Notes: generated by a model not told the origin, from the sequence alone. DNA of 64,000 nucleotides from Deltaproteobacteria bacterium RIFCSPHIGHO2_01_FULL_43_49 (GCA_001798075.1 MGRG01000012.1:155852-219851), one strand, 5' to 3'; positions 7,927-58,059 are shown, counted from the stretch's first letter. Translations and numbers: made by a program.

Positions 7927-8020
7927 GTGAGAAAGTGATGGGTGACCCGCAGTGTTGCTGTGGGGTTTAGTTAGGGGTCCCCACAGTAACACGGAGGGGC
8001 AGGACCCGTCACTTTCTCAC
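7927..8020. repeat. Palindromic element, copy 1 (core 7940-8007)
   Basis: The 68-bp core starts GGGTGACCC and ends AGGACCC. It contains an inner stem (TGTGGGG with TCCCCACA) around a TTTAGTTAG loop. The core is bracketed by a perfect 12-bp inverted repeat, GTGAGAAAGTGA (7927-7938) and TCACTTTCTCAC (8009-8020). The core recurs at four other sites in the window, but the flanking arms are unique to this copy. Confidence 0.9.
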
Positions 8021-8133
8021 CACCTTTATATCTGGCATAAGGATTGCACAACAAACCCTTGCGTAAGGTTTTACACCAGAGGGGGTTTATAAATGTGCCT
8101 GGTTGTCAAATTTTTGACGCAAAGGTGGTCAAA

Positions 8134-11025
8134 ATGAAAAAATGGTTATTACTGGGATTTTGCATTGTTTTATTGGCCTCTTGTACCCATAAAAGGGCTC
8201 AAATAACCGCTGGCCAACCATCAGGGGGTTTTGGACCGCCGACTCCGACCGCCTCGGGCGATATACCAGAACCGCCACCCCCAACCCCCCCCGAGGTGCT
8301 GAACTGTCCAACCGATGGAACTTACACGGTTATCAATCCCTACAAACAGGGGGTAGAAAAGTATGTTGGACCCTTGGATTCGCAACGTCTGAATGATTTT
8401 CAGCCTCATATCCAGCCAAGAAATGCAGGAGGAAAGATCGCCGATTTTCAAGTCTATCGAGAAGCAAACCAATTTTATTTACTAACGGGGTATGGCAAAA
8501 CGCTTGTTACTAAATCCTACGACATGACCGCCAGTCAGAGCCAGATAGATAACAGTCCGGTCCTGGACGAAACTCTTTTGGATGCGGCTATCCAGCAAGT
8601 CATTGCATTTCCTTATCAGAACAAAACATGGCTTGTTGCGGCCACCCATTTGAGTCTCAACTTTTTTGAAAGCCAAGCGGGTGACATTACCAATACAAAA
8701 GGTCAGATCCCTTTTCCCTCATCCATCATCTCTCTTTTTTATGATGCGGCAAACCAGGAGCTCTATGTGGCTGATGCAGAGGGGGATGTTTTCAGGCTGG
8801 CTATGTCTTCTGCCGAGCGTGGTGGTTGTATCGATCGCGTTGTCAGCAAAGAGGAATTTCTTGAAAGAACTATTCAAAAAATACAAGTGGCCAAAGACAA
8901 GCTATATGTTCTTTCTGAAAAGGGTGTTGATTCTTCTGTCGTGAATCTTGAAAATATGGCGGCTTTGCCAAATTTGGTTGCCGATATTTTCGGTGGTTTT
9001 GCAGAAGGCTTTATGAAAGAAACATTGCGCTTGATGTATGTCCTGACAGATCCCACCCACTTACGTTTAGACAGCATTGATTTAAGCAAGGGTGAAAGAA
9101 AAACGCTGCGTACGGATAGCATGAGTGGGGCCACTCACGTGCGTGCTCAAATCAACGACTTTTTTGTCAATCAAGACAAGATTTATGTTGTGGCTGGTCG
9201 CTTGTTTACGGAGAGCGAGAATCAGGAATTGCTCAGTGGCGTTTCTTCGTATTTAATGTCTCTCTGTGGAAGACCGGATCAACTTTGTTCCAAATCGATG
9301 CCGCTGTTATGGTTGTCTATGCCGAATCTTCCTCAAGAACTCAATCGTATCGCGGAAACCCTCCTAGGGCGATCTCCTGCATTTTCTTCTCTTTCACGAT
9401 ACCATGCCAAACCTGCTGGCCTTGTTGTCTTTAACAATAATAATTTGGCCACACCCAGCACCATTTATCTTCTCCAAGACACACAAAACACGGGAGAGCC
9501 TTTTCAGAAGGGGCTTTGGGATGTGCAGGGTGTCAACAAGAGTGGGGATATTTATCTAGCCAGTTCGAGGGTTGTTCTGCATTTGACACCACAAGGGTCG
9601 AATAACTTTGCTCAATCATTACTCCATTATGAAGACCTCCCGGGAACTTTTAGTGACTTTGTGTCATTTATACAATCGGCCAGGCAAACTTATAAAATTG
9701 ACTATCTCTCCAATAATGGACAAACAGCTGTGCTTCGCTTGAGAGGGTTTACGATCAACCGTGCCTTGGAAAATGTTTTAGTCTCTGCTAACCCTGTTGT
9801 AAAAAGTGAACACAAAAGCAGGGGACTGCCACGCAACATTGTTGGAAGAAAAAAGAGCGATATTTTTACATCAATCGACTGGGTCGACTATGCTCATAAG
9901 TGGATAGCAAAATGGAATGGTGCGCAAGCAACAGACCTTGGTAGTCCATTTGAATCTTTCCCCTATAAGATTAGCTCATGGGATCCTATTTCGGGAAGCA
10001 CAACCGTCGCTTACCTTGACAACAAGCAGAACACAGATCCTATTGACGACGTCTATGTTACTAAAATAATTGATCCACAAGGACAAGAAGTACTTGCGCA
10101 GCCACAGGATGTCATTGCTCCAGCCCTTCCAGCCCTTTTGGAACTTCCCTACGCACCATCTTGTACCATGAAGATACAACGGGGATTAAAGGGTGTCACT
10201 AGCATCGGTCCTCCAAGAACTACCAAAACCAGCTATTTTTATCTGTCTTATGTAAAATCGACCTTTACTGGGACGGGGTGTCCCAATAATCTACCTCCAC
10301 CTACGACTCACGCCATCATGAACAGTTTTTCAAAGAGTAGTATGGGTTGGTCAATCAACGACTCCCTTGATTTAGGCGAGGTATCTACAGTAGTGGGGGG
10401 AGGCGGCTTTGCCGGTCCTTTAAGAAGAGAGTCAAGCGGTGATCTCTACTTTTTGGTCAAGATACCAGCTTTAGTGATGGTCAAATACGGAGTTAAACAC
10501 GACCCCGCAGGTAACCCAATCAGTGAGGAAGAATTTTTGGGCCGCAGCTTTTTGGTTTTCGACGAAGCGATGAAAAATATCATTGTGGCTAAAGGAGAGA
10601 GTGACTCTTTGGTGCTAGCCGATAAAGGCTCCTCCTCTTTCGCCAGGTTTTACCGCTTCCCCTGGTCAGATCTTATTCAGAGGGCTGATTTGGATGAACC
10701 CAATACACAAAATCCACCGGGACCTTTGGCCTTGGATGTTGCTCATGAATTGGGCTATTCCCTGCAACTCGATATTTTAGATAACGATGTTGCGTCGATT
10801 TTGCAGCTGGGTAACAACAATGTTTTACTAAATATTGTGGGAAAACTGGGGACATCCCGTTTGGAATTGCTAAAAATTGATGCGTCTAATCAGTTTCAAC
10901 GCCTCTTAAGTGGTCGTTTTCAGAGGCTCATGGATATGGCCTATGATGAGGAAGACCACCGCAATATTGTTTTGTCGCTGGAAGACAACGGCCTTGAATT
11001 CTATAGGCTTCCGCTAATTCCTTAA
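8134..11025 (+). CDS. Large lipoprotein of unknown function
   Basis: The frame is open from 8044, but the ATG at 8134 is preferred. It has an AAAGGTGG ribosome-binding site and starts a clean lipoprotein signal (MKKWLLLGFCIVLLASC, lipobox LASC, modified Cys at residue 17). The mature protein (963 residues in all) begins with a Pro/Gly-rich linker and then a long region of beta-rich segments with recurring patterns such as 'DKIYVVAGR', 'YLLQDTQN' and 'GDIYLASSRVVLHL'. These resemble the blades of a beta-propeller or other repeated surface domain, but I cannot assign a family. It is probably anchored to the outer or inner membrane through its N-terminal lipid. It is monocistronic and converges on pckA. 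Confidence 0.8.
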   Translation: MKKWLLLGFCIVLLASCTHKRAQITAGQPSGGFGPPTPTASGDIPEPPPPTPPEVLNCPTDGTYTVINPYKQGVEKYVGPLDSQRLNDFQPHIQPRNAGGKIADFQVYREANQFYLLTGYGKTLVTKSYDMTASQSQIDNSPVLDETLLDAAIQQVIAFPYQNKTWLVAATHLSLNFFESQAGDITNTKGQIPFPSSIISLFYDAANQELYVADAEGDVFRLAMSSAERGGCIDRVVSKEEFLERTIQKIQVAKDKLYVLSEKGVDSSVVNLENMAALPNLVADIFGGFAEGFMKETLRLMYVLTDPTHLRLDSIDLSKGERKTLRTDSMSGATHVRAQINDFFVNQDKIYVVAGRLFTESENQELLSGVSSYLMSLCGRPDQLCSKSMPLLWLSMPNLPQELNRIAETLLGRSPAFSSLSRYHAKPAGLVVFNNNNLATPSTIYLLQDTQNTGEPFQKGLWDVQGVNKSGDIYLASSRVVLHLTPQGSNNFAQSLLHYEDLPGTFSDFVSFIQSARQTYKIDYLSNNGQTAVLRLRGFTINRALENVLVSANPVVKSEHKSRGLPRNIVGRKKSDIFTSIDWVDYAHKWIAKWNGAQATDLGSPFESFPYKISSWDPISGSTTVAYLDNKQNTDPIDDVYVTKIIDPQGQEVLAQPQDVIAPALPALLELPYAPSCTMKIQRGLKGVTSIGPPRTTKTSYFYLSYVKSTFTGTGCPNNLPPPTTHAIMNSFSKSSMGWSINDSLDLGEVSTVVGGGGFAGPLRRESSGDLYFLVKIPALVMVKYGVKHDPAGNPISEEEFLGRSFLVFDEAMKNIIVAKGESDSLVLADKGSSSFARFYRFPWSDLIQRADLDEPNTQNPPGPLALDVAHELGYSLQLDILDNDVASILQLGNNNVLLNIVGKLGTSRLELLKIDASNQFQRLLSGRFQRLMDMAYDEEDHRNIVLSLEDNGLEFYRLPLIP

Positions 11026-11030
11026 CTGTC

Positions 11031-11070
11031 GCGGCAGTTTGCCAACGTCCACTGGACGTTGTTTGCCTGC
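11031..11070. terminator. Hairpin between convergent genes
   Basis: A perfect 8-bp inverted repeat (AACGTCCA, one base, TGGACGTT; 11044-11060) is nested in GGCAG/CTGCC arms. It fills the short gap between the lipoprotein and pckA stops. There is no long T-run, so termination is a positional inference. Confidence 0.4.
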
Positions 11071-11077
11071 CTTGACT

Positions 11078-12568
11078 TTATTTAAAACGCTTGTAGTTTT
11101 GGGAGAAAAGATTAGCGAGTTTTTGTGCCTGCGCAGTGTAGGCTTGTTTGTCTTTCCAGCTCTGGGATGGCTCCAAAATTTCTTTTGGAACTCCAGCGCA
11201 TTGTTCGGGAATGCTGAGATGAAACTGGGCATTAGGTTTGAAGGCGATTGTTTCCAGACTACCATTGATACAGGCTTCAATAATGGCTCGCGTGTAGGGG
11301 AGAGAAATTCTTTTTCCAACTCCAACGGGACCCCCTTGCCAACCGGTGTTGATCAGGTAAACAGGTGTTGAATATTTTTTCAGTTTTTCACCAAACATCT
11401 TGGCATAATGCGTTGCTGGTCTGGGCAAAAAGGGAGCACCAAAACAATTGCTAAAGGTTGCTTGAGGATCTTTGACACCTGTTTCGGTGCCGGCGAGTTT
11501 GGCAGTATACCCGGAGAGAAAATGATACATCGCTTCTTCGGGAGTTAGTTTTGCAACCGGTGGTAACACGCCAAAAGCATCTGCTGTCAAAAAGAAAATG
11601 GCTTTGGGGTGGCTACCGACACTGGGAACGACAGCGTTATCAATGTAATCGATGGGGTAGGCAGCGCGTGTGTTTTCTGTAATGGAGTCATCATTATAAT
11701 CAACCTCTTTTGTGTTTGGCTCGATGACAACATTTTCCAGAACTGTTCCCTGTCGAATCGCTTTCCAAATTTGTGGTTCGAATTCCTGCGAGAGGCGGAT
11801 ACATTTTGCATAGCAACCCCCCTCCAAATTGAAAACACCGGTGTCAGACCAACCGTGTTCATCATCACCAATAAGGCGGCGCTTGGGATCAGCAGAAAGA
11901 GTTGTTTTACCGGTGCCGGATAGCCCAAAAAACAATGCAACATCTTCCGCATTACCCACATTGGCTGAACAGTGCATTGGCAAAATTCCTTTTTCTGGCA
12001 AAAGGTAATTGAGTGTAGTGAAAATCGACTTTTTGATTTCACCCGCATATTGTGTGCCGCCGATCAAAACGATTCGTTTTTCAAAATCGAGAATGATGAA
12101 GGTTTCTGAATCAGTTCCGTCTTCTTTTGGGTTTGCCAGAAAATAGGGAGCTGCAATAATCGTCATGTCGGCATTTCCTTGGATTTTTTCTCCCTTGGCG
12201 GGTCTCAAAAAAAGATGATGGGCAAAAAGATTGTGCCAAGCAAGCTCTGTAACGACCTTTATATCGAAGCGGTGTTTGGAATCAGCACAAGCATAAGCAT
12301 CGCGCACGAAAGTTTCTTTCGTTTTTAAATAATCCTGTACTTTCGCCAGCAATTTATCAAAACGATCTCTAGAAAAAGGTTTATTGACCTTGCCCCATTC
12401 GATATTTTTCTTGGTGTCTTGAGTGTCAACAAAAAACCGGTCATTAGGGGAACGGCCAGTCCTTTTTCCCGTTTTAACAACTAATGCTCCATTGGATGCA
12501 AGGACTCCTTCGTTGCGTTGGAGTGCGTGTTGAATCAACTCAACTTGGGCCAGATTTTGATAGACCAT
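11078..12568 (-). CDS. pckA: Phosphoenolpyruvate carboxykinase (ATP)
   Basis: Gluconeogenic conversion of oxaloacetate and ATP to PEP, CO2 and ADP. The diagnostic blocks are TGKRTGRSPNDRFFV, GLSGTGKTTLSADPKRRLIG (ATP-type P-loop), DDEHGWSDTGVFNLEGGCYA, LTADAFGVLPPVAKLTPEEA and the GWQGGPVGVGKRI region. At 496 residues it is somewhat shorter than typical enzymes. An in-frame stop lies just upstream of the ATG at 12568, so the N-terminus lacks roughly 15-20 residues of the usual leader but no catalytic part. It fits with the sdh and suc genes nearby. Confidence 0.95.
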   Translation of the reverse strand: MVYQNLAQVELIQHALQRNEGVLASNGALVVKTGKRTGRSPNDRFFVDTQDTKKNIEWGKVNKPFSRDRFDKLLAKVQDYLKTKETFVRDAYACADSKHRFDIKVVTELAWHNLFAHHLFLRPAKGEKIQGNADMTIIAAPYFLANPKEDGTDSETFIILDFEKRIVLIGGTQYAGEIKKSIFTTLNYLLPEKGILPMHCSANVGNAEDVALFFGLSGTGKTTLSADPKRRLIGDDEHGWSDTGVFNLEGGCYAKCIRLSQEFEPQIWKAIRQGTVLENVVIEPNTKEVDYNDDSITENTRAAYPIDYIDNAVVPSVGSHPKAIFFLTADAFGVLPPVAKLTPEEAMYHFLSGYTAKLAGTETGVKDPQATFSNCFGAPFLPRPATHYAKMFGEKLKKYSTPVYLINTGWQGGPVGVGKRISLPYTRAIIEACINGSLETIAFKPNAQFHLSIPEQCAGVPKEILEPSQSWKDKQAYTAQAQKLANLFSQNYKRFK

Positions 12569-12667
12569 AGGTTGCGTTACATTGCAGAATTATTATGGAA
12601 TTTCAAATATATTTTAAAGTTTGGAAAACAAGCAACTTTCTTCTATCCTAGCCGATGATAGGTTCAG

Positions 12668-14134
12668 ATGGCGACCCTTTTATTTAACCAGCCTGTGTTA
12701 GCTAGCGGAATGGATTACGCTGTTTTTGCAGCCGGCCTTGAATGTGCCGGTGTGCCTGCAACGGATCCAATGCGGATTCTTGTTGATGCTTATTTGAATC
12801 CCCTACAGCCTGCGAATACATCAGCCAAGAGAGAACTAAAACGCATTATTGAAGGATCGGTTAAACAACATCCTGGCCCTTGGATAAAGACTATGGCGCG
12901 TGTTGAAGGGAGTTGGTTTGTTCCGCAAAGCCGACGCCAATTTTCACCAACTCCATCTTTCTTCTCGAGCATTGGCGAGCCAGCAAGAGAATTTGTTGAA
13001 TCGAGAACAATTTCTTTTAAAAAACAAAGTTCCTCCACGAGCGTTCAAATGGCTGGCTCTAGTGAAGGAAATGGTAATCAAATTGCATTAGAGGAGGCTT
13101 GGAAGAGGCTTGCCAAATTTTTAATGGCGACCCCTTTCAGGTGGAATGCTTCTACTCCTAACCAAGAGGCTATTGAATCGATTGCCAATATTGCCGATTT
13201 ACTCTCTCCAGAAGATCGACTCAAGTTTGCAGAGGAATTTCGGTCAATGCTGGCAGATAAAGAACATCAGGTTCGCGAAGGGGTTGTGCTAATTCTAGCG
13301 CGTCTCTTTCCGAAGTTGAACCCAAGGGAGTGCTTGCCTTTTGTCATGGCTTTGCTTGCAAGATTTGAAGTGGAACACTTTTTGAGTAATGCATTTAAAG
13401 TCCTTTGCCAAATGGTTGACGCCTTACAAAGAGAAGATTGTTTGGAGTTATTGAAAAAATTGGAACAGGATATTGTCAAGGTTGATGTACCAGCTCGTAC
13501 TGAAAAGATAAAACTTTTGGCCCATGTCGCTCGTCGATTGGAAATAAAGGAGCGTTTGCATATTGTGGAGTTTTTGGAAACTCTCCTAAAGGACACGCAA
13601 AATGGTGACAGGCAGACTGCTATTTCTGTGATTATTACTATTTTCCCTGATTTGCCACCGGAGGAGCGTCTGCGTATGGCAAGGCTCTTTGAAGCCCTTC
13701 TAAAAGATAAGGAGCATAGCATCCGAAAAGCCGCTGTTACTGCACTCGTTCACATCTTTTCCAATTTTCCCTTAGAAGAACGTTTGCCATGGGTCTTAGC
13801 GGTCGAAGAATTAATCAAAAATGCTAGCGATATATATATTGCTGTAGAAGCATTAAAAGAGATGATTCCCCACTTGGCCACGAAAGATCTCTTGCCAAGG
13901 GCCCTGACGCTTGTGAGCGTTATAAAGGGTACCTATGATAATTATTTTCATTCAATTCAAAAAACGCTACTTGGGATCGTTATTCTCTTAAACTATGAGG
14001 ATCGTTTGAGAGTTGTTGCAGAATTGTCAAAGAAATTTCAAGAGAAAGACAAACGGTATGGCGAGGCTGCAGGCGTGGTACTTTCTGCAATGGAGCCCCT
14101 CTTGTTAAAGCCGGTGGAAAATCCTACCTCTTAA
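12668..14134 (+). CDS. HEAT-like repeat protein of unknown function
   Basis: The 488-residue protein has no recognisable signal peptide. After a low-similarity N-terminal part (residues 1-170), at least five helical repeats of about 38-40 residues follow. Each has the pattern 'L.pEeRL..a..feaLLkDkeh.iR..av.al..if', for example PEERLRMARLFEALLKDKEH and LEERLPWVLAVEELIKN. This looks like a HEAT/armadillo-type solenoid, usually a protein-protein interaction scaffold. A weak promoter (TTGGAA, 17 bp, TATCCT) lies 19-47 bp upstream. The 3' end overlaps sdhB (convergent) by 11 bp. Partner and role are unknown. Confidence 0.72.
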   Translation: MATLLFNQPVLASGMDYAVFAAGLECAGVPATDPMRILVDAYLNPLQPANTSAKRELKRIIEGSVKQHPGPWIKTMARVEGSWFVPQSRRQFSPTPSFFSSIGEPAREFVESRTISFKKQSSSTSVQMAGSSEGNGNQIALEEAWKRLAKFLMATPFRWNASTPNQEAIESIANIADLLSPEDRLKFAEEFRSMLADKEHQVREGVVLILARLFPKLNPRECLPFVMALLARFEVEHFLSNAFKVLCQMVDALQREDCLELLKKLEQDIVKVDVPARTEKIKLLAHVARRLEIKERLHIVEFLETLLKDTQNGDRQTAISVIITIFPDLPPEERLRMARLFEALLKDKEHSIRKAAVTALVHIFSNFPLEERLPWVLAVEELIKNASDIYIAVEALKEMIPHLATKDLLPRALTLVSVIKGTYDNYFHSIQKTLLGIVILLNYEDRLRVVAELSKKFQEKDKRYGEAAGVVLSAMEPLLLKPVENPTS

Positions 14135-14864
14135 AAACTTTTTGCCAAAATTTCGCCACAGGGTCGTAGTAGCGGGTGACAACGCGCTCTTTGAGAGGAA
14201 TGATAGCATTGTCGGTGATCGTGATATGTTCCGGACAAACTTCCGTGCAACACTTGGTGATGTTGCATAAACCCATTTCAAATTTTTCTTTGAGGAGTGG
14301 CAGACGGTCTTCTGTGTCAAGGGGATGCATTTCCAAAGAAGCGACCCTTACTAAAAATCTGGGTCCCAAAAAGTTATTCTTTTTGTGATTTCTGATCACG
14401 TGGCAAACATCTTGGCACAAGAAACATTCAATGCATTTTCGAAATTCCTGGACGCGGTCAATATCTTTTTGCTGCATCCGCCAAGTTCCGTCGGGTAGCG
14501 CTTCCTTTGGTTTGAATTTGGGGATCTGTTTATTGATTTCATAATTCCAAGAAACATCACAAACCAAATCTTTGATGATGGGAAAGGCTTTCATCGGTTC
14601 TACTGTTATTGGTTTGTCGAGGGGGAGCTGATCCATTCTTGTCATGCACATGAGCTTTGGTTTGCCATTCACCTCGCCCCCGCAAGAGCCACACTTACCG
14701 GCTTTGCAATTCCATCGGACAGAAAGTGTGGTGTCTTCTTTTGCCTGAATATGATGAATGGCATCCAACACGACCATCCCTTCATGCAAAGGGACTTCAT
14801 ATTCTTTGAATGCACCCCCTTTGGAATCGCCGCGAAAAACTTTTAGTTGAGCCTTCTTTTGCAT
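14124..14864 (-). CDS. sdhB: Succinate dehydrogenase / fumarate reductase iron-sulfur subunit
   Basis: Electron-transfer subunit of complex II. It carries three cluster motifs: the [2Fe-2S] ligands in RWNCKAGKCGSCGG plus a later MC, the [4Fe-4S] set CIECFLCQDVC, and the [3Fe-4S] set CNITKCCTEVCPE with one ligand shared back to the 4Fe centre. The 246 residues match the family. The start overlaps the sdhA stop by one base (TAATG), so translation is coupled. Gene order on the minus strand is membrane anchor, sdhA, sdhB, which I associate with the actinobacterial/deltaproteobacterial complex II lineage. Confidence 0.95.
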   Translation of the reverse strand: MQKKAQLKVFRGDSKGGAFKEYEVPLHEGMVVLDAIHHIQAKEDTTLSVRWNCKAGKCGSCGGEVNGKPKLMCMTRMDQLPLDKPITVEPMKAFPIIKDLVCDVSWNYEINKQIPKFKPKEALPDGTWRMQQKDIDRVQEFRKCIECFLCQDVCHVIRNHKKNNFLGPRFLVRVASLEMHPLDTEDRLPLLKEKFEMGLCNITKCCTEVCPEHITITDNAIIPLKERVVTRYYDPVAKFWQKVFKR

Positions 14865-16665: not shown

Positions 16666-16803
16666 AAATTCTAAATCTTAAGCACTAAATTCTAAACAAA
16701 TCCCAAATCCCAAATTCAAATGTCCCAAATGATTTTGTTTGGAATTTCGGTCATTAGAATTTTGAATTTGTTTAGGATTTCGAAATTAGAATTTAGTATT
16801 TTC
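16666..16803. repeat. Period-7 palindromic array between sdhA and the membrane-anchor gene
   Basis: Heptads such as AAATTCT, AAATCTT, AAGCACT, AAACAAA and TCCCAAA (twice) run through the first half. The second half is roughly their inverted complement, so the whole array could fold into a long AT-rich hairpin. It fills the only gap in the sdh operon. Part of it, including AAGCACTAAATTCTAAACAA, is identical to the array after aspS (56587-56713). Confidence 0.85.
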
Positions 16804-22929: not shown

Positions 22930-23004
22930 TGGTGCTCCCAACGGGAATCGAACCCGTATCGCGGCCTTGAGAGGGCCGTGTCCTAACCGTTAGACGATGG
23001 GAGC
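22930..23004 (-). tRNA. tRNA-Glu (anticodon CTC)
   Basis: On the minus strand the cloverleaf is complete: acceptor GCTCCCA/TGGGAGC, D-arm with GGTTA, anticodon stem CGGCC/GGCCG around the loop CTCTCAA (anticodon CTC), T-arm ACGGG/CCCGT with TTCGATT, discriminator A, and an encoded CCA (22930-22932). The anticodon reads GAG codons. Confidence 0.95.
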
Positions 23005-23066: not shown

Positions 23067-23255
23067 GGCAATAGTTCGTAGTGCCCCTGCGAAAAGTGCT
23101 TGAACAAATGATTGGAGCGAAGGGGTGGCCCGGAGTGTTTGTTGTGGGGTTTAGTTAGGGGCCCCCACAAAAACACGGAGGGACAGGACCCCGAAGCTCC
23201 AATCGATATAAAAAAAGCGTTTTTCACAAAGGCCGGAGAAGAATTTGTTGATCAA
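23067..23255. repeat. Composite repeat module containing palindromic element copy 2 (core 23123-23191)
   Basis: The 69-bp core (GGGTGGCCC to CAGGACC) is bracketed by GATTGGAGC (23110-23118) and GCTCCAATC (23196-23204). Outside this, the sequence from GCAATAGTT at 23068 and the tail through TTGATCAA near 23254 are shared with the module at 48392-48645. Outer arms near GCGAAAAGTGCTT and AGCGTTTTTCAC also pair imperfectly, so the palindromes are nested. The module lies between tRNA-Glu and a lipoprotein gene. Confidence 0.85.
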
Positions 23256-25747: not shown

Positions 25748-25831
25748 GTAAGGTGACGGGTGGTCGGCGAAGCTGTCAGCCCGATCTGTAGGGAGGGCGT
25801 GCAGCGAGCCGAGCAGGCCCTGTCACCTTAC
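25748..25831. repeat. Palindromic element related to the 69-bp family (core 25758-25820)
   Basis: The core begins GGGTGGTCGGC and ends GCCGAGCAGGCCC, with termini like the main family but a different interior. Perfect 10-bp arms, GTAAGGTGAC (25748-25757) and GTCACCTTAC (25822-25831), bracket it. The arms are unique to this copy. It lies just upstream of the Ser/Thr kinase gene. Confidence 0.8.
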
Positions 25832-48165: not shown

Positions 48166-48368
48166 AATGGCGCAGGGTGGAAAGGGGTGTTCAAAACGGT
48201 GCTCCACTTCGGGCTATCTCGTCAAAAAAATAATTTCGTTTCAAAAGATGCAGATAGTATCTTACCTGCCGTCAGCTCTATCTGCAGAAACGAATATTAT
48301 TTTATTTGACTCAATACGCCCTCGTTCCCGCGCGATGTTTTTCTCACCCCTTTCCACCCTGCGCCATT
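48166..48368. repeat. 203-bp long-hairpin element with perfect 24-bp terminal inverted repeats
   Basis: Positions 48166-48189 (beginning AATGGCGCAGGG) and 48345-48368 are exact reverse complements over 24 bp. Inside, AATAATTTCGTTT pairs with AAACGAATATTATT, and TGCAGATAG with CTATCTGCA, so nearly the whole element folds into one hairpin. It has no coding potential. It occupies part of the 587-bp gene-free stretch 48085-48671. Confidence 0.9.
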
Positions 48369-48391: not shown

Positions 48392-48645
48392 TGCAATAGT
48401 TTGGAGCACCCCTGCGAAAAATGCTTCAGTGTAGTGTGGTCGGAGCGAAGGGGTTGGTTATTTTAAAAAAGATTTGAAAATGAGGGGTGGCCCGGAGTGT
48501 TTGCTGTGGGGTTTAGTTAGGGGCCCCCACGAAAACACGGAGGGACAGGACCCGTCATTTTCAACTCATTAGATTTAAACCCCGAAGCTCCACTCTATTT
48601 ATGAAGGCATTTTTCGCAAAGGTCGAAGAATATTTTTTGATCAAG
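48392..48645. repeat. Composite repeat module containing palindromic element copy 3 (core 48485-48553)
   Basis: The core is bracketed by TTGAAAATGA (48474-48483) and TCATTTTCAA (48555-48564). Outside are GGAGCGAAGGGG/CCCCGAAGCTCC and then TGCGAAAAATGC (48413-48424)/GCATTTTTCGCA (48607-48618). The module is homologous to 23067-23255, but here the core and its private arms are inserted deeper, with about 30 bp extra on each side. It fills the rest of the gene-free stretch before the prepilin peptidase gene. Confidence 0.85.
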
Positions 48646-49966: not shown

Positions 49967-50482
49967 ATGAAACATCTTATCCTTACAGGCTTCATGGCTG
50001 CAGGGAAAACAACGATTGGCAGCCTTTTAGGTCCCGAGCTAAAGCTTGAATTTGTCGATTGCGACGATGAAGTTTTCAAGGAAACGGGGTTGCAAGTTCC
50101 CGCCTATATCCGCCGTTTTGGGGTCAAACCTTTTCGAAAAATCGAGAAGTCTGTTTTAAAAAGGGTTCTTAAGGGCTCTCCAGTGGTTTTAGCCACCGGT
50201 GGGGGAGCCATGTTGGACCGTGAAAACCGCCGACTCATTTTGTCTCAGGGCTTTTGTGTTTGGTTGGATACCCCATTGAGTCTTATTTTGAAAAGGTTTG
50301 GTAATAAAAATCGTCGTCCACTATTGCCCAAACCGTTTTCTGTGGAAAAGTTGAATTCTTTTTTCCAAGCAAGAAAATCTTTCTACAGGCATTGTCATTT
50401 GAGGGTTGTAAATACCTTTGACTCTCCTCAGAAAATTGCTATGCAGATCATCAAAGAATATGCATCCCGAACTGCTGAATAA
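49967..50482 (+). CDS. aroK: Shikimate kinase
   Basis: Fifth step of the shikimate pathway, ATP-dependent phosphorylation of shikimate. It has the P-loop GFMAAGKTTIGSLLG, the substrate-binding DCDDEVFKETG, FRKIEKSVLKRVL, VLATGGGAML and an adenine-loop region KNRRPLLPK. The 171 residues are normal. It is first in a tight cluster with TPR genes and aroQ; the next gene overlaps by 23 bp. Confidence 0.95.
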   Translation: MKHLILTGFMAAGKTTIGSLLGPELKLEFVDCDDEVFKETGLQVPAYIRRFGVKPFRKIEKSVLKRVLKGSPVVLATGGGAMLDRENRRLILSQGFCVWLDTPLSLILKRFGNKNRRPLLPKPFSVEKLNSFFQARKSFYRHCHLRVVNTFDSPQKIAMQIIKEYASRTAE

Positions 50483-50951
50483 CTCTATTTTTTTGCGCTA
50501 TTACAATCAGTGGCAAGAAGACCCTACTTCAATCGTTTTTGCCCCAATTGCGGAATATCTGCAGATCTATGGGATGCTTGATGAAGCGATCAAAGTTTGT
50601 CTGGAGGGTTTAAAGAATCATCCAGATTTGGTAAGTGGACGTTTGGCGCTGGCCAAAGCTTATGTTCGCAAAATGGATTTTGAGAAAGCCAGAGAAGAGT
50701 TGAGGCGTGTTTTAATTTTGATGCCGGATCAAGAAAAGGCTCTGGAGTTAATGGCTCAGGTTGATAAAGAACTCTCTCCCACACCAAAAACCAAACAACC
50801 GATCGGTTGGGAAACCGTGACGATGGCCAAAATTTATGCCAGCCAAGGCCACCTTCATAAAGCAAGAGAGGTCTATCAAGCCATTTTGCAAAGAGAGCCA
50901 GCCAATTCCGAAGCCATTCAGGGGTTAGCCAGCCTCGAAAGTGAGGGTTAA
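50460..50951 (+). CDS. TPR-repeat protein
   Basis: 163 residues (ATG at 50460; the frame extends upstream but overlaps aroK further). At least three tetratricopeptide-like repeats: IAEYLQIYGMLDEAIKVCLE, LALAKAYVRKMDFEKAREEL and MAKIYASQGHLHKAREVYQA. No signal peptide is seen. It shares one base with the aroQ start, so it is embedded between the two shikimate-pathway genes; its job there is unknown. Confidence 0.82.
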   Translation: MHPELLNNSIFLRYYNQWQEDPTSIVFAPIAEYLQIYGMLDEAIKVCLEGLKNHPDLVSGRLALAKAYVRKMDFEKAREELRRVLILMPDQEKALELMAQVDKELSPTPKTKQPIGWETVTMAKIYASQGHLHKAREVYQAILQREPANSEAIQGLASLESEG

Positions 50952-51403
50952 TGGGTTTTCAATTTGCGGTGCTCAATGGAAGCAACCTGAACTGGCTTGG
51001 AAAAAGGGAGAGGGCCATTTATGGTTTAGAATCGTGGGGTGCAATTTGGAATCGTTTGCAAAAATGGGCACCCTCACAAGATGCCAATTTAACTTATTTT
51101 CAATCCAATTCTGAAGGAACTCTCATTGACACTCTTCAAGAGATTGATTCCAAGGTTGACGGCGTTGTCTTCAACCCGGGTGCCTATGCCCACACCAGTA
51201 TAGCTTTACGCGATTGTGTTGCTTCGCTTCGTGTGCCTGTTGTGGAAGTTCATTTGTCAAAATTAAGCAAGCGCGAAAAATTTCGACAATTCTCATTCAT
51301 TGCAGATGTGGCGCAAATCACTATAGTAGGATTCGGGGCCGATGGCTATCTGCTGGGGCTTACTTGGCTAAAATATTTTTATGACCGTTCTGAACAAAGA
51401 TAA
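50951..51403 (+). CDS. aroQ: 3-dehydroquinate dehydratase, type II
   Basis: Third step of the shikimate pathway. The 150-residue type II enzyme carries LNGSNLNWLGKRERAIYGLE (catalytic Arg and Tyr), FQSNSEGTLID, NPGAYAHTSIALRDCV, VEVHLSKLSKREKFRQFS (catalytic His, substrate-binding Arg) and VGFGADGYLLGL. The usual GPNLN is GSNLN here. Starts 1 nt before the TPR gene ends; the downstream TPR gene overlaps by 23 bp. Confidence 0.93.
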   Translation: MGFQFAVLNGSNLNWLGKRERAIYGLESWGAIWNRLQKWAPSQDANLTYFQSNSEGTLIDTLQEIDSKVDGVVFNPGAYAHTSIALRDCVASLRVPVVEVHLSKLSKREKFRQFSFIADVAQITIVGFGADGYLLGLTWLKYFYDRSEQR

Positions 51404-52757
51404 AATTTTAGATGCCGCCAAAGATTTCATTACGGAAGGCAAATTCGACAAGGCCGTTCGTGAATATGAAAAACTCTTACAAGCGGACCCCAAAGATATG
51501 CGGATCAAACTCCGCATTGCCGAGCTCTTTGCCAAAATCAGACAAATTCCGGAGGCGATCAAGGCCTATCGTGAAGTTGCTGAATCCTACGCCCACGATG
51601 GGTTTTATTTAAAAGCGGTCACCGTCTATAAAAATATTTTGCGCCTGAACCCTTCTTTGTTAGATGTCAATCAAGCACTGGCTGCCCTTTATGAAAAAAT
51701 GGGTCTCAATCAAGATGCTGTCCATCAATATGAAATTTTGGCACAGGCCTTTGAACAAAAAAATCGGTTTGATGAGGCGCTCAAAGTCCGACAAAAATTA
51801 GTAGAACTGGCACCAAGCGAGGGGACCCATCGCACAAGACTTGCAGAGGCTTATCAAAGAGACGAGAAAAAAGAGGAGGCCATTGAGCAATATGAACTTT
51901 TGGCCAAACAATATAAGGAACAAAAAAAGGAACCACATCGGCTCATAGAGCTCTATGAAAGAATACTTCCCTCTCGCCCGCAAAATAAAGAGATGCTCAC
52001 TCATCTGGTCGATCTTTATTATCAAAAGAAAGATTATAAGGCGGCATTGAAATGGCTGGAACAGTTTAAACAAGTCACCTCTGCAGATACCCATCTTTTG
52101 GGATTACAAGCAGAGATGTATGCGGTGTTGAACCAATTGGATACAGCTCGCGGAAAATATCAAGAGTTGGCGGAACTTTATATGCAACAGGGAGAAAATC
52201 AAAAGGCATTGAACGCTTATGGCGAAATTTTAACCCTTTTGCCCGAAGAGATGGAAACACTGCGCCCCATTGTGGAGGGGATACAGGCCGGCGCTATGGA
52301 AGTGTTGCAAAAAAAATCTCAGGAGAAGCGTCAAAGTAAACAAGAAGAACAAAAGCTCAAAGAAGAAGAGCAGGAAAAGGAAAAAGAGGCTAAAGAAAAG
52401 GCACGAGATTTAGAAAAACAGAAACCTAAGTTAGCTCCTCAGCAGGCATCAGCAACACCTCCTTTTCCTGTGAAACAACCTCCAACCGAAAAGGGGGATG
52501 TTAACACCCTTTTGAAAAAGGCTAAATCGGCTCTTCAGCTGTCCAAAGCGTATGAAACAACCGGCTTGGAGAGTGAGGCAAAACAAGAACTTTCTCAGGC
52601 AAGAGATTGTTTGAAAAAAATTCTCACCATTGATAGTCAACACGCGGAGGCTTTGCAATTATTGAAGGATTTGGGTGGTGTGCCGGTGCAGGCGCCAGCC
52701 CCTCCAAAAAATAAGCCAGAGCCCCCCAAAGGAAAAAAGAAAATATCTTTTGTATAA
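51381..52757 (+). CDS. TPR-repeat protein with charged coiled-coil tail
   Basis: 458 residues. An array of about eight TPR units spans residues 1-300 (for example DFITEGKFDKAVREYEKLLQ, PEAIKAYREVAESYA, LKAVTVYKNILRLNP, EEAIEQYELLAKQY). A highly charged Lys/Glu/Gln coiled coil (about 305-345) and a Pro-rich linker follow, then a last TPR-like pair, ending in a KPEPPKGKKKISFV tail. It is probably a scaffold. It is co-oriented and nearly contiguous (6-bp gap) with the ExeA-like ATPase, so the pair may act with pilus or secretion machinery; that link is inferred. Confidence 0.85.
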   Translation: MTVLNKDKILDAAKDFITEGKFDKAVREYEKLLQADPKDMRIKLRIAELFAKIRQIPEAIKAYREVAESYAHDGFYLKAVTVYKNILRLNPSLLDVNQALAALYEKMGLNQDAVHQYEILAQAFEQKNRFDEALKVRQKLVELAPSEGTHRTRLAEAYQRDEKKEEAIEQYELLAKQYKEQKKEPHRLIELYERILPSRPQNKEMLTHLVDLYYQKKDYKAALKWLEQFKQVTSADTHLLGLQAEMYAVLNQLDTARGKYQELAELYMQQGENQKALNAYGEILTLLPEEMETLRPIVEGIQAGAMEVLQKKSQEKRQSKQEEQKLKEEEQEKEKEAKEKARDLEKQKPKLAPQQASATPPFPVKQPPTEKGDVNTLLKKAKSALQLSKAYETTGLESEAKQELSQARDCLKKILTIDSQHAEALQLLKDLGGVPVQAPAPPKNKPEPPKGKKKISFV

Positions 52758-52763
52758 ATAGCA

Positions 52764-53588
52764 ATGGACCACCTTCAATATTATCATCTAACTCAAGAAC
52801 CGTTCTCGATCATGCCGCTCACCCAGTTTTATTTCCACAGTGAGCAGCATGATCGGGCTTTGGAGAGATTGCACTACGCAGTCTCCGGCATGAAGGGGCT
52901 AGCCGTTTTGGTGGGTGACATTGGATTGGGTAAAACATTATTGGCCAGACGTCTGTTGGAAACCTTGCCGGAATCGGAATATGAAGTTTCTTTACTTGTA
53001 GTCTTGCATGAGGATGTCGATTCCACATGGTTGTTAAAAAGGATTGCAGCACAGGTGGGTGTTGAAAATGTGCCGGACCAAAAGGTGGAAATCTTGACGA
53101 AACTTTTAAAGAGGCTCAATGAAATAGCAGAACAAGGAAAAAAAACGATCGTGTTAATTGATGAAGCACACATGCTGAGGAGCAAACAACTGATGGAAGA
53201 AATTCGGGGGTTGCTCAATTTGGAATTAGAAACGCAAAAACTTATTTCGCTTGTTTTATTTGGACTCCCCGAACTCGATCAGTGTTTGAATACGGATGCT
53301 GCATTGGCTCAAAGAATCGCAGTGCGCTTTAATTTAAAACCTCTTTCAGGAGAAGCGGTTAATCATTATATTGAATTTCGTCTTTCACAAGCAGGGGCAA
53401 CGCAACCCATTTTTTCTGGAGATGCCCTTCAGGCGATTCACCAATATTCAAAAGGAATTCCGCGTCTCATTAATGTTTTGTGCGATAATTCTTTATTTGA
53501 GGGATACGTGCGCCGTGCTTCAATGCCTCTGGGTGTTGAAGTTGTAACCTCTGTGTCGGAAGATTTAGGATTGGTGAAACAACTATGA
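52764..53588 (+). CDS. ExeA/MshM-like AAA ATPase
   Basis: 274-residue AAA ATPase starting MDHLQYYHLTQEPFSIMPLT, the typical N-terminus of the general-secretion ATPase ExeA/GspA family (also TniB-like). Walker A is GDIGLGKTLLARRLL, Walker B is TIVLIDEAHML, sensor-like segments follow, and the C-terminal helical lid has YSKGIPRLINVLCDNSLFEG. The peptidoglycan-binding domain of full ExeA is absent, so it resembles the pilus-associated short form. Prepilin peptidase upstream supports a role in a type II/IV machine. hisS overlaps its stop by 4 bp. Confidence 0.87.
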   Translation: MDHLQYYHLTQEPFSIMPLTQFYFHSEQHDRALERLHYAVSGMKGLAVLVGDIGLGKTLLARRLLETLPESEYEVSLLVVLHEDVDSTWLLKRIAAQVGVENVPDQKVEILTKLLKRLNEIAEQGKKTIVLIDEAHMLRSKQLMEEIRGLLNLELETQKLISLVLFGLPELDQCLNTDAALAQRIAVRFNLKPLSGEAVNHYIEFRLSQAGATQPIFSGDALQAIHQYSKGIPRLINVLCDNSLFEGYVRRASMPLGVEVVTSVSEDLGLVKQL

Positions 53589-54832
53589 AAATTGAAGCAA
53601 TCAAAGGGATGTCCGATGTTCTGCCGCCTGAGTCTGAAAATTGGCAAACGGTTGAGCAACTGGCTCGGGAAGTTTTTAGAACGTACGACTTTCAGGAAAT
53701 TCGTACCCCCATTGTTGAGCCAACCGAATTGTTTGTTCGCAGCGTGGGAGAAACAACCGATGTCGTTCAAAAGGAGATGTATACCTTTAAAGATCGCAAA
53801 GGTTTATCATTAACCTTAAGACCTGAGGGAACTGCTTCTGTAGTGCGGGCATACATTCAAGCGAGCCTTTCTTCCAAAGACCCCATCGCGAAACTTTACT
53901 ATTTTGGGCCAATGTATCGCTATGAACAGCCTCAAAAAGGGCGCAAACGGGAGTTTTATCAAATCGGTGTGGAACTTTTGGGTGCCGAAACACCGCTGGC
54001 CGATGCCGAAGTTTTAATGCTCTTGGAACAACTTTTTTTGAAAGTAGGCGTTACTGACACCAACTTGGAAATCAATTCGTTGGGTTGTAAAAATTGTCGC
54101 CCTGATTACATCAAAGCGATTCAGAAATTTCTCAAGGGCAAACTAAATAAATTTTGTGACGATTGCCAAAAGAGAAGTCAAAAAAATCCTTTGCGAATTT
54201 TAGATTGCAAAAAAGAGGGCTGTCGCAAGCTGACCGAAGATATTCCGTTGGTGAGTGATTTTTGGTGCGTGGAATGTCATCAGCATTTTAGAGAAGTCAG
54301 GGGGCTGTTGTTAGCCGGACATGTGAAATTTAAAGAGAACCCCCGAATTGTAAGAGGGCTCGATTATTATTGCCGCACAACTTTTGAAGTGTTGTCGGAT
54401 CGTTTGGGAGCACAAAATGCGGTTGCCGCCGGCGGGCGTTATGATGGATTGGTCAAAGATTTGGGTGGGCCGGATGTGCCCGGTGTGGGGTTTGCAATTG
54501 GAATGGAGCGTTTGATGATGTTAGTTTCGACGAACCCCGAACCCCGAACCCCGAACCCAAAACCTTTAATTTATTTTGCCCTTCTTGGGAGCGAGGCCCA
54601 GCAAAAGGCGATGTCGGTTATTCAAGAGCTGAGAGCAAAAGGTCAATCGGTGGGATGTGCCTATGGAGGTTCTTTAAAATCTCAAATGAGGCGTGCGGAT
54701 AAACTTAATGCCTCTCATGTGGTCATCCTCGGTGAAAACGAGGTGGTAAAGGGAATTGCTATAGTCAAAGAAATGGAGACCGGAAACCAAAAAGAGGTTT
54801 TGTTGGGGAGATTAGTGGAAGAATTGAGCTAA
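53585..54832 (+). CDS. hisS: Histidyl-tRNA synthetase
   Basis: Class II synthetase, 415 residues. It has IKGMSDVLPPESENWQ, motif 2 with LRPEGTASVVRAY and the MYRYEQPQKGRKREFYQIG loop, the HisA signatures (VRGLDYYCRTTFEV and AAGGRYDGLV), motif 3 (GFAIGMERLMML) and the anticodon-binding domain. A cysteine cluster (CKNCRPDY, CDDCQKR, CKKEGC, CVECH) marks the insertion domain. A CGAACCC array (54531-54558) adds TNPEPRTPNPKP between the catalytic and anticodon domains. Confidence 0.96.
   Translation: MKIEAIKGMSDVLPPESENWQTVEQLAREVFRTYDFQEIRTPIVEPTELFVRSVGETTDVVQKEMYTFKDRKGLSLTLRPEGTASVVRAYIQASLSSKDPIAKLYYFGPMYRYEQPQKGRKREFYQIGVELLGAETPLADAEVLMLLEQLFLKVGVTDTNLEINSLGCKNCRPDYIKAIQKFLKGKLNKFCDDCQKRSQKNPLRILDCKKEGCRKLTEDIPLVSDFWCVECHQHFREVRGLLLAGHVKFKENPRIVRGLDYYCRTTFEVLSDRLGAQNAVAAGGRYDGLVKDLGGPDVPGVGFAIGMERLMMLVSTNPEPRTPNPKPLIYFALLGSEAQQKAMSVIQELRAKGQSVGCAYGGSLKSQMRRADKLNASHVVILGENEVVKGIAIVKEMETGNQKEVLLGRLVEELS
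54531..54558. repeat. Heptanucleotide array (CGAACCC x4) inside hisS
   Basis: Four perfect consecutive 7-bp units lie at the junction between the catalytic and anticodon-binding domains and are read in frame as a Pro/Asn-rich linker. Confidence 0.9.
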
Positions 54833-56595
54833 TGATGAAACGGACACATACCTGCGGTGAGTTAAATAAGAAACAGGTTGGCAAGAAAGTTATTCTGATG
54901 GGTTGGTGTGATGTCCGTCGCGACCATGGAGGCCTTATTTTCATCGATCTGCGGGATCGGTGGGGAAAAACACAGATTGTTTTTGACCCTTCCGTTGCGC
55001 AAGCAGCACAGGGGCTAGCCAAAGAAATCCGGTCCGAGTTTGTTTTGGAAGTCGAAGGAAAAGTAAGAAAGCGGCCCCAGGGGATGGAAAATAAAAAGCT
55101 CCCCACCGGTGAAATTGAAGTTGTTGTACAGTGCTTGAAAATTTTGAATCGTTGTCCCACACCCCCTTTTGAAATATCCGATCAAGCCGATGTAGCAGAA
55201 GAAGTGAGGCTCAAATATCGTTTTTTAGACCTCCGACGTCCTTCCATGCAAAACTATCTCATTTTGAGGCATAAAACAGCACAGGCAGTACGCAATTATT
55301 TATCAAAACAAAATTTTCTTGAAGTTGAGACACCCGTTTTGACTCGTTCCACTCCAGAAGGGGCAAGGGATTATCTGGTTCCTTCGCGTGTTCAACCGGG
55401 AAAGTTTTTCGCGCTGCCTCAATCGCCCCAGCTTTTCAAGCAACTTTTGATGGTCTCTGGTTTCGATAAATACTTTCAGATCGTTAAATGCTTTCGAGAC
55501 GAGGATTTGCGGGCTGACCGTCAACCAGAGTTTACTCAAGTCGATATCGAAGCCTCTTTTGTGAGCCGCGACGATATTTTGGAGATGGTAGAGGGCCTGA
55601 TTCAAACAGTTTTCAAGGAAGTCTCCGTTAAAAATATCAAAAAATCTTTTGACCGCCTCAACTATAAAGATGCCATGAATTGGTATGGCTCTGACAAACC
55701 CGATCGGCGTGTTCCGTGGAAGATTGAAGATGTCTCGGAGATTTTTAAAAACTCTCCGTTCAAAATTTTTTCCCAAGCTGCTGAACAAGGAAAAGTAATC
55801 AAAGCGCTGAAAGTGACTCCAGCGCAGGATCTCGCAAGGAAAGATTTTGAATCCTTAGAGTCGGAGGTCAAAGGTTTGGGGGCAAAAGGTCTAGGGTGGG
55901 CCAAATTAACAAGTGAAGGCTGGCAGTCCCCCATTGCAAAGAATTTTTCGGATCAGGATAAAGAGGGTCTTTTAAAGAAATTAAAACTCAAAGCGAATGA
56001 CGCCGTTTTATTTGTTGCCGATGAATGGGCTGTTGCCTGCCAAGTCCTTGGTGCTTTGCGACTATCGTTGGGCAAAAAATTGAAAGTGTTCGATGAAAAG
56101 ACAACGGATCTTTGTTGGGTCTTGGATTTTCCTTTATTTGAATGGTCGGCGGCCGACAATCGCTATGTTTCTGTCCATCATCCCTTTACCTCTCCACATC
56201 TAGAGGATCTCTCACTGATGAATGGTAGCGATTTAAGCAAAGTTCGCTCCCTTGGCTATGATTTAGTGATGAATGGCTATGAAATTGGTGGGGGATCTAT
56301 TCGTATTCATGATCGTGATCTACAACAGAAAGTCTTTGAGACGTTGAAAATATCGGCTGAAGAAGCGACCCGCCGTTTTGGCTTTTTACTTTCAGCCTTG
56401 GAATATGGAGCCCCACCTCATGGTGGCATTGCATTAGGATTTGATCGTTTAGTGATGTTGCTTGCCAATTGTAGTTCTATTCGAGATGTGATTGCCTTTC
56501 CCAAAACAACCTCTGCAACTTGCTTGATGACAGAAGCTCCCTCTGAAGTCGATGAAGCACAGCTCAAAGAACTCCATATACAAATTAAATCCTAA
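54832..56595 (+). CDS. aspS: Aspartyl-tRNA synthetase (probably non-discriminating)
   Basis: Class IIb bacterial AspRS, 587 residues. It has the OB-fold anticodon domain with GWCDVRRDHGGLIFIDLRDR, FLEVETPVLTRSTPEGARD, QSPQLFKQLLMVSGFDKYFQ, CFRDEDLRADRQPEFTQVD, the GAD insertion domain, and motif 3 in GIALGFDRLVMLL. His in RRDHGG, rather than Leu, is the residue I associate with non-discriminating enzymes that also charge tRNA-Asn, which agrees with the gatCAB operon nearby. Start ATG overlaps the hisS stop (TAATG); the second ATG (54835) is equally possible. The stop lies in a period-7 array. Confidence 0.95.
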   Translation: MMKRTHTCGELNKKQVGKKVILMGWCDVRRDHGGLIFIDLRDRWGKTQIVFDPSVAQAAQGLAKEIRSEFVLEVEGKVRKRPQGMENKKLPTGEIEVVVQCLKILNRCPTPPFEISDQADVAEEVRLKYRFLDLRRPSMQNYLILRHKTAQAVRNYLSKQNFLEVETPVLTRSTPEGARDYLVPSRVQPGKFFALPQSPQLFKQLLMVSGFDKYFQIVKCFRDEDLRADRQPEFTQVDIEASFVSRDDILEMVEGLIQTVFKEVSVKNIKKSFDRLNYKDAMNWYGSDKPDRRVPWKIEDVSEIFKNSPFKIFSQAAEQGKVIKALKVTPAQDLARKDFESLESEVKGLGAKGLGWAKLTSEGWQSPIAKNFSDQDKEGLLKKLKLKANDAVLFVADEWAVACQVLGALRLSLGKKLKVFDEKTTDLCWVLDFPLFEWSAADNRYVSVHHPFTSPHLEDLSLMNGSDLSKVRSLGYDLVMNGYEIGGGSIRIHDRDLQQKVFETLKISAEEATRRFGFLLSALEYGAPPHGGIALGFDRLVMLLANCSSIRDVIAFPKTTSATCLMTEAPSEVDEAQLKELHIQIKS

Positions 56596-56713
56596 ATCCT
56601 AAGCACTAAATTCTAAACAAATTCTAATGACCCAAATCCAAATGTCCCAAACAATCTTGTTTAGAATTTTGGCCATTGGAATTTAGGATTTAGATATTAG
56701 AATTTAGAATTTT
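56587..56713. repeat. Period-7 palindromic array between convergent genes
   Basis: AAATCCT (twice), AAGCACT, AAATTCT, AAACAAA, TTCTAAT and further heptads, followed by an inverted-complement half. It shares long identical stretches with the array in the sdh operon (16666-16803). The aspS stop codon and the stop of the opposing gene both lie within or at its edges. Confidence 0.85.
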
Positions 56714-57212
56714 ATGTCGTGGTGTATTGTTTATTGGCCAGTGCGGTAAGAATATCTTCTTGCACAATTTTGTAGGTATCTTTGGCGAGTTTACCCGTGA
56801 CCTCAATTCGTTTAAGAAGTTTTTCACCATCATTGCCGGCAAGATTTATTTTTTCGCGGGCTAAGACAGCATTTTTTTGATTTCCTGTCTCCAATTTTCT
56901 GCCAGCTCCCGTTGGATCTTTGAGATGGAGTGTTAAGTCTCGCATAATGATACACCCTCTGAGATTATTATGAATCTGGTTGTGTGTTGGGTGTGGCATC
57001 ACATGATTTTTGGTGATGAAAAGGTGGTGCAGGGCCCCGTTGATTTCAAGCGATCTCTGGAGTCGGTTTCTTTTAAGAACCTTTTCTGCAGGGCCGATAA
57101 TAATTTGATAGTGCCCATAAGAAGCGTGGACATTAAAAACATGCACCTCGTTTGGCGGTAAATTGGGGGCCAATTTAACCATTTCCATCAGTTTCTTAAG
57201 AAATGTCTGCAT
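56712..57212 (-). CDS. Hypothetical protein
   Basis: 166 residues starting behind a good AAAGGTGGT ribosome-binding site. No signal peptide or membrane segment is seen. Distinctive segments are EVHVFNVHASYGHYQIIIGP, HHLFITKNHVMPHPTHNQIH (His rich, possibly metal binding) and LKRIEVTGKLAKDTYKIV. I recognise no family. The gene converges on aspS, with the period-7 array between them. The strong ribosome-binding site and absence of a competing frame make it likely real. Confidence 0.66.
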   Translation of the reverse strand: MQTFLKKLMEMVKLAPNLPPNEVHVFNVHASYGHYQIIIGPAEKVLKRNRLQRSLEINGALHHLFITKNHVMPHPTHNQIHNNLRGCIIMRDLTLHLKDPTGAGRKLETGNQKNAVLAREKINLAGNDGEKLLKRIEVTGKLAKDTYKIVQEDILTALANKQYTTT

Positions 57213-57354
57213 ACCACCTTTCTACAGTGCAAGGTCCATGCCAGCCTTATTTTAAAGCAAATTTTTGTAAGTTATTGTTTTTATTATACTTTTTAAAATA
57301 GAGGGGACGTTCCCCAGGATTTTTGACACCCACGCGTCATTGTTTTGACGGGTA

Positions 57355-58059
57355 TTACAGAACGGCTGGAGCCAGCAGGAAGGTTGGACCGACAATCACC
57401 GCAGCATCAACGCTAAACCCCCCTCTGGTAATGGGGAGCTTATATAAATAACTCCTGACTTCAACCTGGAGGGCAAAATGGGGTGGTTTTAAATAGAGAA
57501 GGGTTCCTAATCCAAAAAAGCCATTGGCTAGATCTGCATTATTAATTTTGAGCCAACCCCCTCCCACAAATCCATAAATATCCATTTCTAACACTTTGCC
57601 ATGGCCTACTTTGATGGCAGCAGGCGTCACACCTTTGATGGCTCCATTGACATGAACCATTTTTTTATTGGTGACTGTTTGTCCATAAGCGCTTTGGGGG
57701 TCGACCTCCAATGGACTAAAACCAAAGTCGACAGCAGTCGCGAAATGCCGACTCCAATTGTAAGAAAGTTGAGAGCCGAGAATGTAGGAGGTAGAAACCG
57801 TATCACCGACATAGAGCCCCGCAAAGGGAGATATTTGAACTCTCGACTTTTGAGCCTCGCGCAAGTCGGTAAACATTTTTGGAAGTTCTTGGGCAGCGGC
57901 AGGTTTTATAAATATTGGAAAAAATATTGTTGCGAGAAGTATTAGAAAGGTAGAAAAAAAGAGGCAGGGCCTGTCCCTCCGTGTTTTTGTGGGGGCCCCT
58001 AACAAAACCCCACAACAAACACTCCGGGCCACCCGCCTCTTTTTTATAATTCTTATCAT
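57355..58059 (-). CDS. Putative outer-membrane beta-barrel protein with an element-interrupted signal peptide
   Basis: 234 residues from the ATG at 58059, which overlaps the upstream gene stop in ATGA. The N-terminus is MIRIIKK, then about 25 residues encoded by palindromic element copy 5 (RRVARSVCCGVLLGAPTKTR...), then a hydrophobic core FFSTFLILLATIFFPIFIKP ending AAAQ. The mature part reads as a small barrel (RVQISPFAGLYVGDTVSTSY, FATAVDFGFSPLEVDP, FALQVEVRSYLY, ending FLLAPAVL). The signal peptide would have an extended, strongly basic n-region. Whether export still works cannot be judged from sequence. Confidence 0.7.
   Translation of the reverse strand: MIRIIKKRRVARSVCCGVLLGAPTKTRRDRPCLFFSTFLILLATIFFPIFIKPAAAQELPKMFTDLREAQKSRVQISPFAGLYVGDTVSTSYILGSQLSYNWSRHFATAVDFGFSPLEVDPQSAYGQTVTNKKMVHVNGAIKGVTPAAIKVGHGKVLEMDIYGFVGGGWLKINNADLANGFFGLGTLLYLKPPHFALQVEVRSYLYKLPITRGGFSVDAAVIVGPTFLLAPAVL
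57955..58045. repeat. Palindromic element, copy 5 (core 57966-58034, reverse orientation), inside a coding region
   Basis: The 69-bp core is bracketed by perfect 11-bp arms, AAAAAAGAGGC (57955-57965) and GCCTCTTTTTT (58035-58045). On the minus strand it is read without a stop inside the signal-peptide region of the outer-membrane protein gene. Confidence 0.9.

Follow-up and report, generated by a model that had tools for sequence, protein, structure and literature searches.

A short palindromic element recurs in a 64,000-nucleotide window (the whole stretch of DNA that was analysed) from Deltaproteobacteria bacterium RIFCSPHIGHO2_01_FULL_43_49 (GCA_001798075.1, MGRG01000012.1:155852-219851). 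It has a 69-nt core bracketed by two arms that pair with each other, and measures about 95-120 nt with its arms. The five copies named in the original prediction lie where it placed them, each with exactly the self-complementary arms that it gave; a sixth element, a sister with a different tip that was absent from its list, lies among them. The features are the following, with the two arm classes (class A and the GGAGC subfamily) described further on.

7927-8020, plus strand: copy 1, core at 7940-8007, class A arms GTGAGAAAGTGA/TCACTTTCTCAC
23110-23204, plus strand: copy 2, GGAGC subfamily arms GATTGGAGC(GAA)GGGG / CCCC(GAA)GCTCCAATC
25748-25831, plus strand: sister element, collar GGGTGG as in the core, different tip CAGCCCGATCTGTAGGGAGGGCGTGCA, private arms GTAAGGTGAC/GTCACCTTAC
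48408-48623, no strand: outermost palindrome around copy 3, arms at 48408-48424 and 48607-48623
48442-48591, no strand: palindrome enclosing copy 3, GGAGCGAAGGGG (48442-48453) / CCCCGAAGCTCC (48580-48591)
48474-48564, plus strand: copy 3, arms TTGAAAATGA/TCATTTTCAA
49852-49942, minus strand: copy 4, core reversed, class A arms GAAAAAGTTGT/ACAACTTTTTC
57955-58045, minus strand: copy 5, core reversed, arms AAAAAAGAGGC/GCCTCTTTTTT

Copy 1, whose 12-bp arms pair perfectly and are found again, identical, at L002 (L-numbers denote sequence loci and G001 to G005 related genomes), begins about 20 bp past the stop codon of an open reading frame (ORF) that ends at 7907, and copy 5 lies 10 bp beyond the stop of the minus-strand ORF 58056-58601. 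Copy 2 is about 105 bp from a tRNA-Glu gene (22930-23004, minus strand), on its 5' side, while copy 3 sits inside two more palindromes, GGAGCGAAGGGG/CCCCGAAGCTCC and CCCCTGCGAAAAATGC/GCATTTTTCGCA. The element is too short to encode a protein of its own, and a host reading frame passes through some copies. Rfam covariance models run on the window matched tRNA only and gave no match to the element.

The genome-wide core search proposed with the original prediction found 103 copies in the 2.2 Mb, 15-contig genome, 48 forward and 55 reverse, with a 23-nt core pattern at two or fewer mismatches; the reversed control pattern had no match there. Among 40 related genomes the sole significant core match is one diverged copy in G002, which has class A arms, and the core was not found in other genomes of the genome collection (from whose first scan the element's own record was possibly left out) or in phages, plasmids and viral contigs. 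The closest named relatives are the metagenome-assembled genomes JAUSII010000128 and JAUYJH010000152. These many near-identical copies at unrelated loci mark the element as a dispersed non-autonomous palindromic repeat, in the broad sense of repetitive extragenic palindromes (REPs) and miniature inverted-repeat transposable elements (MITEs). Copies settle where genes meet and often extend over a stop or start codon, and many lie between co-directional genes or within genes; a gene 3' end, by a simple hexamer model of gene calling, lies within 35 bp of the core in 46 of the 98 copies that were extracted with flanks for arm analysis. Many arms end in T-runs. Some copies stand in frame inside genes that resemble PabB, YgfZ and PrmA in sequence (PrmA and PabB with the backing of PDB matches), and about ten, judged by eye, fall in the n-region of apparent signal peptides.

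Orthologous sites in the relatives, a comparison that had been proposed earlier, mostly lack a hairpin. Synteny with all five members of the family extends over a 13-kb block. The TPR and TatD genes almost abut in G003 and G001, and at L151:9657, where our genome has the palindrome, the genes overlap in G002; at these two sites and at L206:2707, 12462 and 18502, G003, G001 and G002 have 0-31 nt free of any palindrome. At L206:4766, 12462 and 18502 the relatives have short spacers without this palindrome, some with simple repeats. The copies at the compared sites bring 28-58 nt beyond the core, which fits arrival of both arms with the unit. Some sites are occupied differently: at L139 G002 and G001 encode plain signal peptides, and G003, G004 and G005 carry other palindromic repeats in frame at the identical point, while at thiE/thiD G004 and G005 have unrelated palindromes. 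Since the relatives usually lack this palindrome at the same junctions, the family arrived in the lineage of our genome, and since other palindromes stand at some of these junctions in the relatives, palindromes have colonised the junctions repeatedly. This presence and absence of the element at orthologous sites is the pattern by which mobility of such repeats is recognized. Different in-frame palindromic repeats were also seen in the same signal peptide of the gene after gpsA in G005, G004 and G003 (L201, L202, L205). A hairpin AAAAAGCCTTTTGAG/CTCAAAAGGCTTTTT, probably a native terminator, lies in the same region of three family genomes with different loops (L151:11867, L192:10573, L194:2150); it is shorter in G002, and a similar one occurs in G005 at L197:2353 (fetched strand).

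The arms of each copy pair with each other far better than chance partners do. The 78 copies that do not belong to the GGAGC subfamily have own-arm pairing scores that sum to 841, whereas dealing their left arms to the right arms of other copies gives 274 (sd 21.5, with 363 as the highest of 10,000 permutations). The 30 copies with the lowest similarity to the consensus reach 279 with their own arms and 59 with re-dealt ones (sd 12.6, highest 119), so the complementarity reported earlier stands up well to a shuffled control. It is found at nearly all copies; L148, L057, L170 and the hybrid L082 lack paired arms. The accompanying claim that arms have no similarity between copies fails across the genome. 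Similarity to a consensus, GGTGAAAAAGTAGT, ranges continuously from 2 to 14 of 14 positions, while the peak for random flanks is at 4-5; the majority of arms depart from it by degrees and stand at constant distance from the core (class A), and the GATTGGAGC..GCTCCAATC arms of copy 2 are common to about 20 copies (the GGAGC subfamily). The arms of the majority class thus belong to a longer conserved element, an outcome that the original prediction had named as one that would refute it; as read from the flanks, the arms of the full class A unit seem to be about 24 nt long. A minority of arms are unrelated to either class. By eye, no direct target site duplication is apparent at the listed flanks.

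Changes in one arm tend to be mirrored in the other. In class A 85 mirrored double changes were observed where 45 are expected if the sides vary independently, and in the GGAGC subfamily 11 against 3.7, a test whose outcome depends on which consensus is chosen and on the common ancestry of the copies. The stem within the core covaries also, with TA in 56 and CG in 35 copies at columns 19/47, and TA in 70 and CG in 25 at columns 20/46. Beyond the innermost position, the non-Watson-Crick arm pairs read on the core-oriented strand comprise 27 G.T and 2 A.C (p=1.6e-6), and G.T still exceeds A.C by 12 to 1 where the flanking genes are antisense to the core; the bias therefore follows the strand of the element and not the host mRNA. 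Such an excess of G.T over A.C suggests that one strand of the element folds, either as RNA or as single-stranded DNA.

A hypervariable, self-paired stem between two constant parts is present in sister elements of two related genera as well. In eight such elements of G002 the outer collar and inner tip are nearly constant, and they enclose a variable 11-bp stem whose pairs number 82 Watson-Crick, 4 G.T, no A.C and 2 of other kinds (a one-base difference in two of these elements was aligned by hand). Because this stem lies between constant parts of the element, target DNA cannot be its source; the G002 stems show that private self-complementary stems arise without any target DNA, and together with the mirrored changes and the G.T bias they lead us to favor drift constrained by pairing. 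In our genome and in relatives the common collar also holds a sister tip, CAGCCCGATCT..GGGAGGGCGTGCA. The GGAGCGAAGGGG/CCCCGAAGCTCC stem that encloses copy 3 is found around five or more different fillings, with up to three layers in some cases, and surrounds other fillers at L085, L090, L092, L094, L097, L098 and L104; the arms are retained but the tip is missing in L092 and in short forms at L147 and L153, which resemble deletion products. At the orthologous site L151:6957 our genome and G004, which belong to two genera, have a palindrome at the same position, 21 nt past the stop codon in both, with similar arms (ATTACAAAAGGAGC, TTTTTAAAAAGGAAC) and different tips. One outer stem with different inner modules, together with this site, indicates that exchange at hairpin tips does happen.

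We give about an even chance to the idea that this is a non-autonomous family of the REP, Rickettsia palindromic element (RPE) or MITE type, built of nested hairpin modules, in which the stem varies freely while compensatory changes or template switches preserve its pairing. The 69-nt core, made up of a conserved tip and collar, would sit atop a stem, and the family would have spread recently in its own lineage to gene junctions and to in-frame sites in genes, especially near the N-terminus of signal peptides. Cores would be constrained in sequence or homogenised among copies; the stem would be constrained to pairing alone, with a change in one arm matched on the opposite arm, so that its sequence would drift until each copy had a private self-complementary stem. 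Pairing would be kept by selection for folding of the element strand, by template-switch repair within the palindrome, or by both, and exchange of cores between copies would be a secondary process. We infer that the element moved as a folded single strand.

Several observations weigh against such drift. The 69-nt core is identical in six copies whose arms all differ from one another, several of them without any consensus residue (CTGACGACTGAC, AAAAGTTAAGAG, GTTAAGTGGC), so drift requires that the core be fixed or converted while the arms saturate; this is the main difficulty, and it keeps alive both alternatives discussed next. The arm ends are sharp, at 10-15 nt, as a copying event would give, and the low-similarity arms form no other hairpin in the sequence of this genome that was examined. 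Pairing is imperfect at the single changes in class A (26 G.T, 9 A.C and 18 other), those in the GGAGC subfamily (3 G.T, 6 A.C) have no G.T bias, and the dependence of the mirrored-change test on consensus and ancestry counts on the same side. A mobilising enzyme was not found; the six Y1 transposase genes are flanked by hairpins other than the core.

The original prediction had offered two accounts of the arms, entry of the element into the tips of existing hairpins or creation of the inverted flanks by hairpin-primed synthesis. Nesting and tip exchange prove real, but hairpin-free related sites, the 28-58 nt of extra DNA and the variable sister stems weaken both as general accounts. Of the two, tip insertion or exchange, in which the 69-nt core is placed or swapped into pre-existing palindromes (older repeats, REP hairpins, or A-tract/T-tract pairs) and the arms are the old stem, survives better, though we think it unlikely. 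It draws on the outer stem with different fillers, on L151:6957, on the other palindromes in relatives at several of the same junctions and on AAAAAGTTTTT, which lies at the insertion point in the G002 orthologue of the L139 gene; in addition, 293 kb of this genome's sequence contains 21 further perfect hairpins with 11 bp or more, and a Markov control none. However, clean relatives are hairpin-free at TPR/TatD and at L206:2707, 12462 and 18502, the class A arms form a position-specific consensus that includes the G002 copy, and the variable stems within sister elements are left unexplained. We also considered native terminators as the sole target and set this aside, as few comparable hairpins are left in the window and many copies lie between co-directional genes.

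Less probable again is inverted duplication, in which one native flank is copied at insertion with the folded core as primer, or by template switching soon after, to give an inverted flank of about 12 nt and hence a private stem. Identical cores with unrelated, perfect and sharp-ended 10-15 bp arms are what it would produce, the inverted repeat at L139 crosses the start codon (ATGAAAACTTTGAAAAAGTGG/CCACTTTTTCACAGTGTTCAT, 19/21 by eye), and template switching is known to homogenise the arms of inverted repeats (PMC8604942, PMC7202029). On the other hand, the extra DNA relative to empty sites suggests that both arms are new rather than one, most arms share a consensus, a G.T excess is unexpected from fresh copying, and the sister stems would require another cause. 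A joined-ORF test of which arm is native was set aside as uninformative, its best cases being neighbouring genes joined together, and PabB (L168), tried as a coding empty site, was dropped because the insertion falls in a length-variable linker. Reading-frame arithmetic by hand on the in-frame copies was likewise dropped, as their arm length is uncertain by 1-2 nt. Finally, a non-mobile family of structured RNAs, regulators or terminators maintained by selection, with variable stems and conserved loops like those of ordinary RNA motifs, could account for the covariation, the G.T excess, the 46 of 98 copies near gene 3' ends and the A-tract/T-tract arms that look like bidirectional terminators, but is improbable given copies in both orientations to transcription, in frame inside genes and inside compact junctions, their near absence from related genera and the same junctions there, and the lack of an Rfam match in the window.

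The statement that no described bacterial element behaves in this way was too strong, as Di Nocera et al. (2013) reported REPs of the GTAG and CGTC superfamilies, some of whose dimers lie inside longer palindromes (PMC3733652). Those REPs, like our family, are short, high-copy, palindromic, mostly intergenic and at times in frame, but their enclosing palindromes follow one consensus per genome where the arms here are copy-specific; the present element is also larger, has no recognised GTAG/CGTC tag and does not adjoin a Y1 transposase gene. GTAG does occur in many class A arms, within the stem rather than at its foot and not in every copy. RPEs, which the same paper names, resemble it in being palindromic and in frame within protein-coding genes, although copy-specific self-complementary stems are not described for them in the literature examined. 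Yeast mitochondrial GC clusters are mobile palindromes under structural constraint whose modules merge and shuffle (PMC4478555), in an organelle rather than a bacterium. Insertion sequences with REPs as their targets (Tobes and Pareja 2006, PMC1525189) also enter palindromes, but encode a transposase, unlike the core here, which is non-coding and measures about 69 nt. Quasipalindrome-associated template switching makes inverted-repeat arms match (PMC7202029, PMC8604942); it is a mutation process and not an element, and is one cause offered for the mirrored change. In working principle and habitat the family agrees with REPs, RPEs and the yeast clusters, and we file it among dispersed palindromic repeats. 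About 100 natural replicates in one genome, with sister families, in which the center is fixed, the stem fully turned over and pairing kept, make it testable whether palindromes are maintained by folded-strand selection or by template-switch repair, and nested hairpin repeats are seen to enter reading frames, signal peptides included, in several related genera.

REP-associated tyrosine transposase (RAYT) genes were considered as partners and rejected. Six Y1 transposase (RAYT-like) genes are present (L228-L233); neither the core nor the sister tip occurs within 1.5 kb of any of them, and because the core is not associated with a transposase gene the family does not belong with the RAYT-associated REPs. 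Other hairpins flank these genes, AAAAGGCGTC/GACGCCTTTT on both sides of L232 and GGTACC hairpins at L229.

Other palindromes were noted along the way. Two G005 hairpins (L186:623-662 and L197:6008) share GGTGCCAG/CTGGCACC and differ in their outer arms, GCCAAAA and GCATAA, possibly a second case of copy-specific arms; a similar hairpin is at L139:872 in our genome. The G005 hairpin GTGCCAGCAGTATACTGCTGGCAC, tried as a second high-copy family, occurs at one site each in G005 and G004 at two or fewer mismatches. Another palindromic repeat family of about 130 bp (L151:3808-3945 and L206:10640-10764) matches on both strands and has dozens of G005 copies at about 70-85% identity. Adjoining copy 3, positions 48166-48368 of the window form a long palindrome with 32-nt arms that are 91% complementary, and the copy at L206:4766 has a closely similar palindrome as its neighbour. 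Positions 16666-16801 and 56586-56712 are A-T-rich inverted repeats built from near-repeats of the AAATTCTAAA type.
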